Positions 9,737 to 15,114 of a stretch of DNA of 33,500 nt are shown in pieces. A program made the position numbers and the translations under genes. Origin of the DNA: Candidatus Uhrbacteria bacterium. GTDB taxonomy: Bacteria; Patescibacteriota; Patescibacteriia; 2-12-FULL-60-25. The notes below the pieces were generated by a model, which had not been told where the DNA came from, ran no database searches, and worked only from the letters and a program-made list of their open reading frames with translations. Where the stretch lies: positions 1-33,500 of the forward strand of contig JAHBAS020000008.1 of assembly GCA_018499965.2 (NCBI GenBank), read 5' to 3'. Position 1 is the first letter of the stretch. Each line of letters begins with the position of its first letter.

Positions 9737-10213
9737 CTATGCTACAGCATAGTGTGGAGATACCGGTCGCCGACCTTGCCGTCGAGTGCGCGGCGAAACC
9801 GGACGTCGCGATGATGGAGCGTTTCTCGGCTTCATCATCGGATCTGCAAGTAGCTGCTGATACACTTCCTCCCACAAAGGAGAGGTTGCTTTTTGAAGCT
9901 TGTAAAGAACGGGCGCGAGTCGCCTGCACGCATTCTGGATACGCATCTCAGATTCTGAGAGCGAACCGATCACAACGAATGGCTCTGGCAAAACCAGTTC
10001 CAGCCTGAGACAGAATTCTTCGAGCCAACGGATCTCGGTATGCAAAGCCCTTCTTGCACCCATATTCCGACAATTCTGACTCAAGAGACTCCCAAGACAA
10101 CCTACTCGAACAAATCTTCGAAGATCCGCTCGATGTACTGCATCTCCCGGTGCAGCAAGGCTGACGATCCATGCGTTAAACTGATCAATCTGTCTACGAA
10201 CATTAGAATGCAC
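9737..10213 (-). CDS. Hypothetical protein, 158 aa, basic tail
   Basis: I do not recognise this family. GTG 10213 is taken as start because AAGGAG lies 7 nt upstream and a textbook promoter (10292-10320) lies before it; codons further upstream in frame fall in or next to that promoter. Residues 1-120 are predicted helical and contain 'RRQIDQFNAWIV', 'GARRALHTEIRWLEEFCLRLEL' and 'VYQQLLADP'. The C-terminal 30 residues are Arg/Pro/Ser-rich with a repeated 'RRPVSP', probably disordered and possibly nucleic-acid binding. It has its own promoter, its own terminator and a shared divergent control region with the 10404 gene. The plus-strand frame over the same bases lacks such signals. Confidence 0.7.
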   Translation of the reverse strand: MHSNVRRQIDQFNAWIVSLAAPGDAVHRADLRRFVRVGCLGSLLSQNCRNMGARRALHTEIRWLEEFCLRLELVLPEPFVVIGSLSESEMRIQNACRRLAPVLYKLQKATSPLWEEVYQQLLADPMMKPRNAPSSRRPVSPRTRRQGRRPVSPHYAVA

Positions 10214-10291: not shown

Positions 10292-10355
10292 AGCATAGAC
10301 ATTCATAACCAAACCGTCAATTCAGGTTGACTTTTTTACCATTCTGTGCAAAACT
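10292..10355. promoter_or_regulatory. Back-to-back promoters of the 10213 and 10404 genes
   Basis: Minus: TTGACG (complement of 10315-10320), 17-bp spacer, TATGCT (complement of 10292-10297), a strong match. Plus: TTGACT (10327-10332), 17 bp, then a weak AAAACT (10350-10355) preceded by TGC. The two -35 boxes are 6 bp apart and form GTCAAttcaggTTGAC. Confidence 0.65.
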
Positions 10356-10403
10356 CTCTTCCATTCGTTCGAACTTTCAACCCTCAACAAAGCGAGGTAG
10401 CTC

Positions 10404-10967
10404 ATGAGTCACTACATTCATCCGGAAATCATCGCTCTTCAACAAGCCTTCCACGGCATCGAAGCCGTTGCGCACATCTTCGAGAAACACGGCATCCCCG
10501 TACTCGCAACATCATACAAGATAGAGCCGGATCAAGAAGACCAAGCTCGTAACGGATGGTCGTTACACCACGACGTCGCATCCGTAGAACGCTGCATTGA
10601 CGTATCCTATAACGTCTACCGGGAACATGCCGGTATCGGATATCAAGCCTTGTTTGATGTGCGATCAGAACTCCTTGACCCCTCTACAGACGACCCCGGC
10701 ACGAACATCGTCTTCTCCCTGGAATACATCGTCGCCACAGAAGACCGCAAAATCGGAGGACGAATATGCATAACCGATGACGATTCCGCGATAGGACACG
10801 CCTTCCTGAGAAACACCTTGGAGCTCTCGCGTCGGGAATTCGAAAAAATCTCAACACGTTCATCGAATCTCGACGAGCATCGCTTCCTTACTTTTTTAGA
10901 AAGGATCGTGCAACGCCTCGCTCCCATCATCACTTGCAATCAGAGCCTCCCTCAAATTCAAGAGTAG
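10404..10967 (+). CDS. Unknown protein, member 1 of a local three-gene family
   Basis: The 187-aa protein starts at ATG 10404 with GAGG 6 nt upstream. It shares three blocks, in the same order, with the proteins at 11108 and 13530: 'IFEKHGIPVL' (25-34); 'SLEYIVATEDRKIGGRICI' with 'DDDSAIGHA' (105-133); and a final amphipathic helix 'FLTFLERIVQRLAP' (161-174). The likely fold is an N-terminal helix, an antiparallel sheet and a C-terminal helix. It has no membrane segment, signal peptide or evident catalytic triad, so it is probably cytosolic. The function is unknown. The gene is monocistronic, with a TTGAC-type promoter and a hairpin after the stop. Confidence 0.75.
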   Translation: MSHYIHPEIIALQQAFHGIEAVAHIFEKHGIPVLATSYKIEPDQEDQARNGWSLHHDVASVERCIDVSYNVYREHAGIGYQALFDVRSELLDPSTDDPGTNIVFSLEYIVATEDRKIGGRICITDDDSAIGHAFLRNTLELSRREFEKISTRSSNLDEHRFLTFLERIVQRLAPIITCNQSLPQIQE

Positions 10968-10987
10968 CTTCTCTTTCGCCTCGTTAC

Positions 10988-11021
10988 ATGCCCCGCAATG
11001 GAAATCATTCCTGCGGGGCAT
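10988..11021 (+). terminator. Hairpin after the 10404 gene
   Basis: A 10-bp perfect stem ATGCCCCGCA / TGCGGGGCAT with a 14-nt loop is followed by TGTCG rather than a clean T run. The tail GGGGCATTGTC resembles those of the other two family members. Confidence 0.6.
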
Positions 11022-11042
11022 TGTCGTATATGCCTATTATGC

Positions 11043-11071
11043 TTGACCTCTTTATTTTTTCTTGATATAAA
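11043..11071 (+). promoter_or_regulatory. Strong promoter of the 11108 gene
   Basis: TTGACC (11043-11048), 17-bp T-rich spacer, TATAAA (11066-11071). Confidence 0.8.
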
Positions 11072-11107
11072 CGCACCGCATCAACCCTCTCAAGGAGTCG
11101 CTCATAG

Positions 11108-11677
11108 ATGCAATCAGACCCAAGCAGGATTACGTTCACACATCGAAGATTTACACGGATATCAGAAAGCCCAACCTTTCCGTCCGTTACCGCAGAGCAA
11201 ACACTAAGGACGATAATCGATACGTTCAAGCGACACAACCTCTTAGTCGCGGAAAACGCGAGCATCGTCGAAGACGGCGACATCACCTACATGGTCCGTG
11301 CCGTCTTCTCGAATGATCCGACATGGATCGTGCACATTCGATCCCATACCGACCCGGAAAATCATCATCTCATCCTGAGTCTAAGGCTCGAATATCGGCA
11401 ACGGGTTCCGCGTCAACTCATTCTCTTCTTTGACCAGGAGAAGGGGCAGGCATGGATTCATCCACGCTGCGTGCGCGATAGCGCCGTGGTGATGGAGGAC
11501 ATCCATATGTCCCAAACAAGCCTTCCTCCAAGTAAAGCATGTGAACCGTTTCGATTTGGCACCTTTTTAGCATTCGTGGATCGTATAGCGATACAGACCG
11601 CAAGAGGTCATAAAAAAAGCCGCCGTCAGCTGACGCGCGCATCGCCCCGACGACTTCGATCGCGAGACTCGCTCTAA
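11108..11677 (+). CDS. Unknown protein, member 2 of a local three-gene family
   Basis: The 189-aa protein starts at ATG 11108 with AAGGAG 10 nt upstream. Block 1 is 'TFKRHNLLVAEN' (39-50). Block 2 is 'SLRLEYRQRVPRQLILFFDQ' with 'KGQAWIH' (91-118), close to the 13530 protein's 'SLAFSEDSLRP...FVFDAINGIGHI'. Block 3 is 'FGTFLAFVDRIAIQTA' (150-165). Unlike its relatives it ends in a 25-residue basic tail (six or more Arg plus two Lys), probably disordered and possibly nucleic-acid binding. Residues 1-25 are also extended and basic. It is a single gene between a strong promoter and a bidirectional terminator. The function is unknown. Confidence 0.75.
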   Translation: MQSDPSRITFTHRRFTRISESPTFPSVTAEQTLRTIIDTFKRHNLLVAENASIVEDGDITYMVRAVFSNDPTWIVHIRSHTDPENHHLILSLRLEYRQRVPRQLILFFDQEKGQAWIHPRCVRDSAVVMEDIHMSQTSLPPSKACEPFRFGTFLAFVDRIAIQTARGHKKSRRQLTRASPRRLRSRDSL

Positions 11678-11703
11678 CTAGGTTTCAACGCTCGTTGAAA
11701 CAA

Positions 11704-11735
11704 AACCCCCTGAACTCAACGGAGATCAGGGGGTT
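11704..11735. terminator. Bidirectional terminator between the 11108 gene and sulP
   Basis: A 10-bp stem AACCCCCTGA / TCAGGGGGTT is followed by TGTCA on the plus strand and TTGTTTC on the minus strand. Just upstream, GTTTCAAC / GTTGAAAC forms a second hairpin at about 11682-11700. Confidence 0.8.
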
Positions 11736-11756
11736 TGTCACATCCTAGACTACCGA

Positions 11757-13382
11757 CTATGCCACAGCCTGAAATCCAAGTTCGCGCAACGCGTCCGTTG
11801 TACGTTCAAACACAGCGCCTTCTTTTTGCAGGCCTTTAAACACCGGGCTTTCTTGCAGCATTTCCTGGATCAGGGGATTGACGCCGGACACGAGCACGCG
11901 CTTTCCCTGAGCCCTGATTAACTCAACGATTTCATTAAACGCATCCACGCCATCCAAATCCATAAAACACAATTCGCGTAGTCGAATGACGACATTTTCA
12001 TACCCGTTCAATTTTTGTTCAAAGCGCGCGATATGCGACTGCGCATTAATGAATGCCAGCTGTCCTTTCATGGCATACACGAGCGTATCCGTCTTTTCCA
12101 TGGTATGCGGAAGCGTGTCCGAAATGATTTTTGAATGCAATCCTGTGCCTGTCTTATTCAAGAATAGTTCGAATTGCCCACGAGACAGCTTCTCCGTAAA
12201 GATGAGCAAGTTTACCGATGTTCCAACGAGAATGCCGATAATCGGATCAATGTAGACCGTAAGAGCCGCCACAACCATCGAAAGCGCAAAGCTGCGACGG
12301 TCGAACTTCCACATGCGCTCAAAGTGCTCACGCTCAATCATGCGAATCGCTACATAAACAAGGATCGCTGCAATGACGGCCATTGGGATGTATCGGAAAT
12401 AGCCCAACAGCAACATGGCGATAACGGCAATTGCGATACTACTGATCGTTGCGGACATCTGATTCGTTCCGCCAGTTTTGACGTTCAACGACGTTCGAGC
12501 AAGCGCAGCCGTGGCTGGGATGCCTCCAACGAGACCGGATACGATATTCGCCAAACCGAGACCCATCATCTCTTTTCGACCATTATGCTTCGTCTTCGTC
12601 ATTCCATCCGCAATCTTGGCGGAAAGCATCGTTTCGAGAATAGCAATGACAGCCACGGTAAAACCCGCAGAAAGAAGAGTCGGATGGAATGAGAGGTGCG
12701 GATTCAAAAAAATAGCCGGATTGATTTCAAATTTCTGCCCGAGCGTAATAAGTTGAAAGGGGAGTGAGCCACTCTGGCTAAGCATCCCAATGACGATACC
12801 GATCGGAGCGAGAAAAATCGCTGACGGAAGCTTTGGGAGGAGCTTTGCGAATGCGAACAGAAAAAACGTTGAAAACAAAAAGAGTACGAGAGCCGGAAGC
12901 GATGTCGAAGAAAGGTGGCTGAATGACTCTACAAGATTATTCCAAAATCGCTCATGCGCAGGCAGCCCGCTTAATCCGAGCGCGTAATTCATTTGACCGA
13001 ATCCGATCACAAACGCTACGCCTAACGTAAAACCATGAATCGTACTCGCGGAAATGAACACGAGATACCGTTCAAGGCGAAACGCGTATGCAATGAGAAT
13101 ATAGACACCCGTTACCACAGCAAGAGATGCGAGCGTGTTCGCGCCATGGGTCAAGGCATAGGAAGCGAGGATCCCAGAAAGCGCTCCAGTCGGACCGACG
13201 ATATTGAACTTGCTTCCACCGAAGATTGAAGCGATAAGTCCAGCCCAAATAGCCGTTATGATGCCAACCACAGGCGTTGACTGGGAGGCTACAGCCAAAG
13301 AAACAGAAAGGGGGATTGAGATGAGCGAAACCGTAAGACCGGACTTCCAATTCTCTTTTAGACGTTGAACGATAGATGACAT
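11757..13382 (-). CDS. SulP-family anion transporter with C-terminal STAS domain
   Basis: The 541-aa inner-membrane protein carries SulP signatures: 'GPTGALSGILASY' (63-75) and 'GGIPATAALARTSLNVKTGG' (287-306), within roughly 12-14 membrane helices. A cytosolic STAS domain (about 432-541) follows, with 'VVIRLRELCFMDLDGVDAF', the strand-helix where anti-sigma antagonist-like domains place their key residue. SulP proteins move sulfate, bicarbonate or dicarboxylates by proton or sodium symport; the substrate cannot be read here. ATG 13382 is chosen because a perfect-spaced promoter (13401-13429) lies just upstream. That excludes codons further upstream in frame and leaves a leader of about 12 nt without a Shine-Dalgarno site. 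It is a single gene. Confidence 0.92.
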   Translation of the reverse strand: MSSIVQRLKENWKSGLTVSLISIPLSVSLAVASQSTPVVGIITAIWAGLIASIFGGSKFNIVGPTGALSGILASYALTHGANTLASLAVVTGVYILIAYAFRLERYLVFISASTIHGFTLGVAFVIGFGQMNYALGLSGLPAHERFWNNLVESFSHLSSTSLPALVLFLFSTFFLFAFAKLLPKLPSAIFLAPIGIVIGMLSQSGSLPFQLITLGQKFEINPAIFLNPHLSFHPTLLSAGFTVAVIAILETMLSAKIADGMTKTKHNGRKEMMGLGLANIVSGLVGGIPATAALARTSLNVKTGGTNQMSATISSIAIAVIAMLLLGYFRYIPMAVIAAILVYVAIRMIEREHFERMWKFDRRSFALSMVVAALTVYIDPIIGILVGTSVNLLIFTEKLSRGQFELFLNKTGTGLHSKIISDTLPHTMEKTDTLVYAMKGQLAFINAQSHIARFEQKLNGYENVVIRLRELCFMDLDGVDAFNEIVELIRAQGKRVLVSGVNPLIQEMLQESPVFKGLQKEGAVFERTTDALRELGFQAVA

Positions 13383-13400
13383 AATTTTCTGGGAGACAAG

Positions 13401-13429
13401 ATTGTACACCCATAAAAACGCTTTATCAA
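13401..13429 (-). promoter_or_regulatory. Promoter of the SulP gene
   Basis: On the minus strand TTGATA (complement of 13424-13429), 17 bp, TACAAT (complement of 13401-13406). The start codon follows about 18 nt after the -10. Confidence 0.8.
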
Positions 13430-13454
13430 GCCACATTCGCTCCAATCAGCCGCA

Positions 13455-13483
13455 TTGACAAGTGTATTAAACTCTGTCATGTT
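13455..13483 (+). promoter_or_regulatory. Promoter of the 13530 gene
   Basis: TTGACA (13455-13460), 17 bp, CATGTT (13478-13483). The leader then reads TTTTTGCCCTTT, a string also found in the leader of the 1203 gene. Confidence 0.6.
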
Positions 13484-13529
13484 TACACCATGTTTTTGCC
13501 CTTTTTCACCTCAACCCCGGAGCATACCA

Positions 13530-14042
13530 TTGGCATCCTCAATACCCGCACTACAGATCGAAGAATCACTTCACCCTCTGATTGAGCTCATCAGCGGAGC
13601 CATACAGCTCACGCGCGACCTGAAGAGGGCATTCAAAGAGGCAGGATTTCCCCTCGTGCAAGAAGACGACCCGATCCCACAGACGGCTTTTTGTCCCTAT
13701 GTCTACAGGCATCAAGCGTTCACTGTAGGCGTCACACTCCAAATCAAAGACGTCGCATTCAAAGGCATCGATATCTCCCTCGCATTCTCGGAAGATTCCC
13801 TACGACCAGATCTTGGCCCAATCAGTTTCGTATTCGATGCAATAAATGGCATTGGTCATATTGAGCGCATGAGCGAATTCGACCCATTCTTCAAAGCGAT
13901 GACCCGCATTTTCGGACAAGACCGAGAGATCCTCGAACAACTCATCCGAGAAGGATATACCTTCGATAGAAAGGCCTTCCTTGCGCACATCGATCGCATC
14001 ATCGTTCACGCCAAACGCATCTCCGCACCATCTTCCTGCTGA
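13530..14042 (+). CDS. Unknown protein, member 3 of a local three-gene family
   Basis: The frame is open from 13455, but its first codon is the -35 TTG and the next ATG (13479) overlaps the -10. TTG 13530, with GGAG 7 nt upstream, is therefore the best start (170 aa). The family blocks are 'AFKEAGFPLVQE' (34-45), 'SLAFSEDSLRP' with 'SFVFDAINGIGHI' (83-111) and 'FLAHIDRIIVHAKRI' (150-164). An extra segment 'FFKAMTRIFGQDREILEQLI' (120-139) is inserted before the last helix. The protein looks soluble and cytosolic, and the function is unknown. The gene is monocistronic with its own promoter and terminator, and is divergent from the SulP gene. Confidence 0.75.
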   Translation: MASSIPALQIEESLHPLIELISGAIQLTRDLKRAFKEAGFPLVQEDDPIPQTAFCPYVYRHQAFTVGVTLQIKDVAFKGIDISLAFSEDSLRPDLGPISFVFDAINGIGHIERMSEFDPFFKAMTRIFGQDREILEQLIREGYTFDRKAFLAHIDRIIVHAKRISAPSSC

Positions 14043-14063: not shown

Positions 14064-14098
14064 AACCCCGCACGAAAACGTCGCGGGGTTTGTCATTT
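14064..14098 (+). terminator. Terminator of the 13530 gene
   Basis: AACCCCGCACG pairs with CGTcGCGGGGTT around AAAA, with one bulged C, followed by TGTCATTTTTT. Confidence 0.85.
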
Positions 14099-14160: not shown

Positions 14161-14229
14161 ATGGCCAAAGGCAACAACGCCCAAGCGAAGAATAAGAACA
14201 AGAAGAAGCCAAAGACGAAGAAAAAATAG
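14161..14229 (+). CDS. Lysine-rich micro-protein, 22 aa
   Basis: The frame encodes 22 residues beginning 'MAKGNNAQAKNKN' and ending 'KPKTKKK'; 9 of the 22 are Lys and 4 are Asn. It lies between a strong extended -10 promoter and a near-perfect terminator that starts 17 nt after its stop, so the transcription unit holds nothing else. The bias recalls very small basic ribosome-associated proteins such as Thx and the short 'MAKGxN...KKK' proteins I recall from several phyla, but I cannot confirm homology. No Shine-Dalgarno site is present and the leader is about 27 nt. It could instead be a small RNA of about 140 nt carrying a chance frame. Confidence 0.6.
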   Translation: MAKGNNAQAKNKNKKKPKTKKK

Positions 14230-14246
14230 TCCCGGGCATCTTCATG

Positions 14247-14277
14247 ACATCCCGATGTCCATCGGGATGTTTTTTTA
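14247..14277 (+). terminator. Strong intrinsic terminator
   Basis: A 10-bp stem ACATCCCGAT / ATCGGGATGT with loop GTCC is followed by an eight-T run (14270-14277). It ends the micro-protein unit. Confidence 0.93.
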
Positions 14278-14331: not shown

Positions 14332-15114
14332 ATGGACCTTACACATCAAGATCTCACAAGAGGATATGACGTTCGATTTGACCCTAAACGAAAGCGATTC
14401 TCCATTCGCGTCCATCCAAGCATTCATCAAGTCCTGAAAAGAACTCAAGGTGAACGCCACGGACAGTATGCTGAAACAATTTGGTCTGAACTTTTCCCAT
14501 TTACGGCAGATGACTACCAATGGGGATACGGAGGCTTTCTCCAAATTGAAGACCAGACATCAGACACATGGCCCGAATGGACTTGTTCCTTCGAGCAGGG
14601 CTATTCGATCCTCTGGTGTGCCAATGGTCTCTGTAGCCTTGGAGACCTCCTCAAAACGATCAATGAAGAGCTCTTCGAGCACGGAACACAGCGCAAACGT
14701 ATCAACGTCTTTCAGGTCGGCGCCGTGCAACCGCTCTTTCAGGATAAACCGCAAGTGCCTAACTACTACGGAATGTACGCGAGCATCACGCCATTCGGCA
14801 TGAAGCAGTTACGCAAAAAAGATCCTTTGGCACTCACGACATCTGTCCAAGAGGCAATGCAGGAGGTCTATCTCACCATCTTTGGTGGCGAATATTCATG
14901 TCCGAACATCACGACACCGGTTCGACTGTCCGAGAATTGCATTGAGCTCAAATGTTGCGGCTTCGGGCTTCAGATGCCCATAGACGACCGTCCGTACGTC
15001 GATGCCGGCACAATGGCATCAATCGTAAGCAATCTTCCGAACCACATCGAATGGCTGCATCAAACCGTTCTTCTTGCAGGCATCTTCAAACTCTTTGAGG
15101 AGATCTCATCTTAG
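14332..15114 (+). CDS. Hypothetical protein, 260 aa, orphan gene
   Basis: I do not recognise this family. It is a soluble protein with no signal peptide or membrane segment. The N-terminal half is rich in aromatic residues ('WGYGGFLQIEDQ', 'WPEWTCSFEQGYSILWC'), suggesting a beta-rich domain, and the C-terminal part ends in a hydrophobic amphipathic helix ('HIEWLHQTVLLAGIFKLFEEI'). Seven cysteines are scattered; C-C pairs at 'KCCGF' and 'WCANGLC' might bind metal but form no standard finger. The start is fixed by a strong GGAGG. The gene has its own promoter and terminator like the three-member family nearby, but shares no convincing blocks with it. Confidence 0.75.
   Translation: MDLTHQDLTRGYDVRFDPKRKRFSIRVHPSIHQVLKRTQGERHGQYAETIWSELFPFTADDYQWGYGGFLQIEDQTSDTWPEWTCSFEQGYSILWCANGLCSLGDLLKTINEELFEHGTQRKRINVFQVGAVQPLFQDKPQVPNYYGMYASITPFGMKQLRKKDPLALTTSVQEAMQEVYLTIFGGEYSCPNITTPVRLSENCIELKCCGFGLQMPIDDRPYVDAGTMASIVSNLPNHIEWLHQTVLLAGIFKLFEEISS

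Follow-up and report, generated by a model that had tools for sequence, protein, structure and literature searches.

Three small genes, here called A, B and C, lie between a DUF218 gene and ftsQ in a 33,500-nt stretch of a Candidatus Uhrbacteria genome (the window; the genome as a whole comprises 1.11 Mb in 46 contigs), and we consider it likely that they are paralogues, that is, duplicates of one transcription unit that have diverged almost beyond recognition. A preliminary description of the window had proposed that their products form a single family. This proposal is supported by a block of residues found in all three proteins, by the leader and hairpin sequences of the three units, and by a gain in AlphaFold confidence when the sequences are combined, but not by pairwise comparison. 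The features of the region are collected in Table 1.

Table 1. Sequence features between the DUF218 gene and ftsQ (positions are those of the window).
Feature	Positions	Strand	Description
DUF218-ftsQ interval	9640-15539
Gene E	9740-10213	-	Orphan, divergent from A; GTG start, AAGGAG upstream
Promoter-like site of E	10289-10261		TTTACG - 17 nt - TATATT
Possible promoter of A	10327-10355	+	TTGACT - 17 nt - AAAACT (weak -10); seen in the sequence, missed by consensus scan
Leader word of A	10377-10383	+	TCAACCC, 27 nt before start
Gene A	10404-10967	+	187 aa; GAGGT Shine-Dalgarno-like sequence upstream; block 1 at residue 26, S-L at 105, D-x-G region at about 125, C-terminal block at 161
3' hairpin of A	10990-11018	+	GCCCCGCA...TGCGGGGC then ATTGTC; folded, and genome-wide pattern scan
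Promoter-like site of B	11044-11072	+	TTGACC - 17 nt - TATAAA (good); seen in the sequence
Leader word of B	11081-11087	+	TCAACCC, 27 nt before start
Gene B	11108-11677	+	189 aa; AAGGAG upstream; block 1 at residue 40, S-L at 91, D-x-G region at about 108, C-terminal block at 153; basic C-terminal tail
Hairpin between B and SulP	11703-11735		AACCCCCTGA...TCAGGGGGTT, then TGTC on the + strand; between the convergent ends of the two genes
SulP gene	11757-13445	-	SulP-family sulfate permease with STAS domain, intact; Pfam Sulfate_transp 2.7e-60, STAS 2e-9
Possible promoter of C	13455-13483	+	TTGACA - 17 nt - CATGTT (weak -10); divergent from SulP site 13429-13401
Leader word of C	13511-13517	+	TCAACCC, 19 nt before start
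Gene C	13530-14042	+	170 aa from TTG; GGAG upstream; block 1 at residue 35, S-L at 83, D-x-G region at about 102, C-terminal block at 150
3' hairpin of C	14064-14089	+	AACCCCGC...GCGGGGTT then TGTCATTTTTT; folded
Tiny lysine-rich ORF	14161-14229	+	MAKGNNAQAKNKNKKKPKTKKK; between C and D; TATACT upstream
Hairpin and T run	14246-14271		Downstream of the tiny ORF
Gene D	14332-15114	+	260 aa; GGAGG before ATG

All three ORFs that had been described are present, each on the + strand, and the Shine-Dalgarno site reported for each gene is there as well. ORFs as long as these are expected by chance at only 0.01-0.025 per kb. The codon scores are 0.03 for A, -0.02 for B (the weakest) and 0.11 for C (the best), as against 0.12-0.30 in annotated genes, and since the antisense frames of A, B and C score equally or higher, codon usage alone is no proof of coding. 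We give almost no credence to the notion that one or more of the three, B being the most doubtful, is a spurious untranslated ORF. It would account for the scores of A and B and for the basic, low-complexity tail of B, but ORFs of this length rarely arise by chance, a Shine-Dalgarno-like site, a leader and a 3' hairpin are correctly placed in each of the three, and the best promoter-like site among them belongs to B. Still, B is the least certain gene of the set.

The best ungapped eight-residue block common to the three proteins, in a search that covered all position triples, is FLTFLERI in A, FLAFVDRI in B and FLAHIDRI in C, which begins 27, 37 and 21 residues, respectively, before the end of the protein. 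Its sum-of-pairs score of 81 compares with 50.8±4.8 (maximum 74) in 2,000 shuffles, for a Gumbel estimate of P 1.7e-4, and among 2,000 triples drawn from other proteins that do not match one another in BLAST, one reached the same score. The block statistic was picked after the data were seen; to limit post-hoc selection, we ranked all 165 triples of the 11 unannotated proteins in the window, and A-B-C came first, 17 points ahead of the next triple (64). The next collinear block, block 1 (FEKHGIPV, FKRHNLLV and FKEAGFPL), scores 47, less than the best block of a shuffled triple reaches on average, such that taken alone it is at chance level. The score of the three-way MAFFT alignment is marginal at P 0.03-0.06, and P is 0.008 for the count of invariant columns. 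The three conserved blocks are indeed collinear in A, B and C, as had been described, and their spacing from the C-terminus is similar, which favours kinship, but B lacks a strict match to the C-terminal and D-x-G patterns as we encoded them from the original wording.

When the proteins are compared two at a time, BLASTP returns no significant pair (E 0.06-7) and neither does hhalign with single sequences (P 0.07-0.12); with a two-sequence profile aligned to the third protein, hhalign gives P 0.035-0.17. In neither form does the hhalign probability exceed 2%, and pairwise shuffle tests range from P 0.02 to 0.75 by method (0.07-0.7 with local shuffles). The preliminary description had itself named the lack of any significant pairwise profile match as grounds for rejecting the family, and formally this is the outcome for A-B, A-C and B-C alike. 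The failure of every pairwise test, along with a full three-way alignment that barely beats chance and the chance-level score of block 1, is in keeping with A, B and C being three unrelated orphans, alike through chance and a common small alpha/beta architecture, with the leader and hairpin belonging to the general style of the genome. We regard this as rather unlikely; the C-terminal block is an outlier that argues against it, as do features of the flanking DNA and the predicted structure described below.

Searched for at the DNA level, the C-terminal motif occurs nine times in the genome; apart from those in A, B and C, none of the occurrences falls close to the end of a similarly sized ORF. 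This bears on another alternative, that A, B and C are co-regulated but not paralogous and carry a common leader and a short helix at the C-terminus that serves for docking or targeting, in the manner of a cargo peptide. The restriction of the strongest signal to 8-9 residues near the C-terminus, and the common leader, would both fit, but we consider it very unlikely, as the proteins also have further collinear blocks and similar lengths and architecture, and the search found the motif near the C-terminus of no other protein of the genome, although cargo signals often recur.

Outside the coding sequences, the three genes have the leader word TCAACCC in common. When other upstream regions are taken in triples, 0.03% have a 7-mer in common at aligned offsets (P 3e-4) and 0.8% have one in common anywhere (P 8e-3); as the offset tolerance was set post hoc, the true P lies between these values. 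The aligned leader weighs against three unrelated orphans. Each gene had also been credited with a TTGAC promoter of its own: TTGAC is present upstream of all three, but a good -10 element (TATAAA, after 17 nt) is found only in B, and shuffled sequences contain at least as many promoter-like sites as the region does.

The 3' hairpins of A and B fit the form CCCC...GGGGNNTTGTC, and the strict pattern (GGGG...TTGTC tail) has three separate sites in the genome, two of them at the ends of these genes; this statistic was chosen with the sequence already in view. The hairpin of C has a near form, GGGGTTTGTC, that is also in B. The hairpins said to follow the genes are real in all three cases, but only that of C leads into a clear T run. 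Because the pattern is nearly confined to the locus of A, B and C, it is not a general style of the genome, contrary to what unrelated orphans would require. Since a leader, a Shine-Dalgarno site and a hairpin accompany each gene separately, each reads as a single-gene unit, as had been suggested, and duplication of entire units would be a simple account of the shared leader and similar 3' hairpins.

Structure prediction was applied to C. Alone, it was modelled by AlphaFold with a pLDDT of 36.5 and a pTM of 0.27, too low to be of use; with just A and B added to the alignment, and without an unrelated-row control, these rose to 53.2 and 0.43. Such a gain is expected from real homologues and so supports kinship over unrelated origin, although a pLDDT of 53 is low. 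The better model arranges its elements in a plausible sequence, with a helix at residues 7-36, five strands between residues 56 and 110, and helices at 118-127, 131-140 and 146-164. Foldseek found no match to it below E 0.5, and VIA-align matched it to Mediator chains with Z scores of 9.0 and 8.2, the Z scores for C being mostly in the range that the tool calls common for unrelated models. At most, we would describe the predicted fold as an alpha-beta sandwich (helix-sheet-helices), and we claim no fold family.

No relative of the three proteins was detected elsewhere. Single-protein searches with A, B and C gave none in 40 other genomes of the family (3 of the same genus and 37 others), and a profile built from the three gave no convincing one in 380 other genomes of the class. 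Scans of viral contigs (A, B and C), a phage search (C) and scans of a collection of genome contigs (A and C) were likewise negative. There was no match of curated strength to A, B or C in Pfam, NCBIfam, PHROGs or PADLOC, no match to PADLOC models up to E = 1, and no match in Rfam. Within the genome, no further copies were detected, and no more units were recognised by motif and promoter-leader pattern, a pattern that is slightly too long for B itself and that units as short as B would escape. That the three proteins are undescribed is therefore borne out by the absence of curated matches and of relatives elsewhere. The suggestion that related genomes might hold further copies yielded none, and the picture of a locally expanding family finds no further copy in this genome to sustain it.

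Several candidate matches were set aside. A match in the class-wide profile search (genome G368, E 0.006) contains stop codons, and an ORF of genome G003 that matched C (E 0.018 in a tiny database) is antisense to a plausible ORF that is longer. VanA_C for C (E 0.01) scored 16.4 bits with a cut-off of 23.5, and CdiA_helical for B (E 0.21) also fell below its cut-off. PDB sequence matches (CheY, Sm-like, titin) were at chance level only, and sub-threshold matches in a search for relatives were dropped.

The congeners available are not close, with identities to this genome of 42-46% for FtsQ and 49-53% for DUF218. Apparent orphans are known to arise where homology goes undetected (PMC7660931), and by a simple decay estimate A, B and C would be missed only if they changed about 2.5 times faster than FtsQ does; they are thus either absent from the congeners or very fast-evolving. 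The extreme divergence among the three implies that the duplications are old or that the proteins evolve fast, which also leaves local expansion unsubstantiated.

The DUF218 gene and ftsQ are adjacent in most genomes of the family (loci L028-L047), separated by 0.3-8.6 kb. Here, RmuC and DUF218 genes (+) precede A, and past D there is a housekeeping run on the - strand that starts with ftsQ, alanine racemase and two tRNA synthetases. Judging from translations, the slot in relatives holds GreA-like, phosphoglycerate-mutase-like and ABC transporter genes, as well as DNA alkylation repair, endonuclease III-like and CTP synthase-like genes and unknowns. A BLASTP search of 20 DUF218-ftsQ intervals gave no relative of A, B, C, D or the SulP protein. 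As the content of the interval differs and no relatives of A, B and C came to light in those examined, these orphans occupy a variable slot. Curated libraries leave the neighbours E and D without relatives too, and neither is related to A, B and C; this would suit three unrelated orphans, since orphans evidently gather at this locus anyway.

The SulP gene described as interrupting the array is indeed intact and on the - strand; it separates B from C and is not a member of their family. As listed, its ORF begins upstream of its own promoter-like site, and the start is probably the ATG near 13383.

Other ORFs of the slot deserve mention. A congener (G001) has an ORF of 184 aa in the same relative place as E (L030:1970-2524, -), with PExxVIGxxxExxxRIxNA common to both and a BLASTP E value of 7e-4 among 607 ORFs; on this sequence similarity, E may be a fast-evolving gene retained in place. 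Gene D has no curated family match and is unlike A, B and C. More small orphan ORFs are found in the slot elsewhere (L029:2119-2640, -; L044, L046 and L047), those of the last three loci being alike by eye.

If A, B and C are paralogues, the ancestral unit would have consisted of a promoter, a leader, an ORF and a C/G-rich 3' hairpin, and would have been duplicated twice between the DUF218 gene and ftsQ. The copies would then have diverged until likeness survived only in the C-terminal helix, F-L-x-x-hydrophobic-[DE]-R-I, in a helix towards the N-terminus that closes with F-[EK]-x-x-[GN]-x-x-[VL], and in a strand with I-x-x-S-L. In each case the product is probably soluble and built from a long N-terminal helix, an antiparallel sheet of five strands and helices at the C-terminal end. 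As to function, we can only speculate that these might be small non-enzymatic binding proteins, chaperone-, adaptor- or immunity-like, in which the conserved C-terminal helix could pack on the sheet or dock to a common partner and a variable sheet face could give each copy its own ligand. More doubtful is the idea that duplication of the complete gene-plus-promoter-plus-hairpin unit gave rise to a lineage-specific family in a single species or among its near relatives, with divergence so fast that even paralogues separated by a few kilobases can hardly be recognised. An arms race would be expected to bring about divergence at such a rate, and so would a role as partner-specific binding proteins in an episymbiont.

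Several known systems offer points of comparison. The C model resembles Nqo15 of complex I (2fug chain 7; VIA-align Z 7.5, rmsd 3.7, 109 residues aligned) and frataxin entries (Z 5.2-6.8 for the same low-confidence model) in its arrangement of N-terminal helix, antiparallel sheet and C-terminal helix, but A, B and C have no sequence match to these proteins and no frataxin Pfam match up to E = 1. The same weak model is also similar to the type III secretion chaperone SycT (2bsh; Z 6.2 over 85 residues), likewise a small soluble protein with a helix-sheet-helix arrangement, but there is no sequence similarity to such chaperones, and the genes of the window that were tested include none for secretion. 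Immunity-type arrays of polymorphic toxin systems consist of tandem, strongly diverged small soluble proteins, and A, B and C are likewise tandem, strongly diverged, small and soluble. They differ in that the window contains no toxin gene and that none of the three matches an immunity family or a defence library.

Should A, B and C be paralogues, they would provide a worked example of an orphan set that grew by duplication and then lost pairwise similarity. Standard clustering would count them as three separate families, and three-way and flanking-sequence evidence could recover kinship that pairwise searches miss.

The closest parallel may be in the AGNOSTOS catalogue, which lists 45,788 species-level lineage-specific unknown clusters in Cand. 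Patescibacteria, where no other kind of lineage-specific unknown comes close to species-restricted ones in number (PMC9132574). Like these clusters, A, B and C have no relative detected in congeners and no known domain, and the small genome and gene content of their host appear typical of the group. The AGNOSTOS entries are single clusters, whereas A, B and C are three neighbours and apparently remote paralogues. Most likely, then, A, B and C resemble the common species-restricted genes of Patescibacteria, with a duplication history as an added feature.
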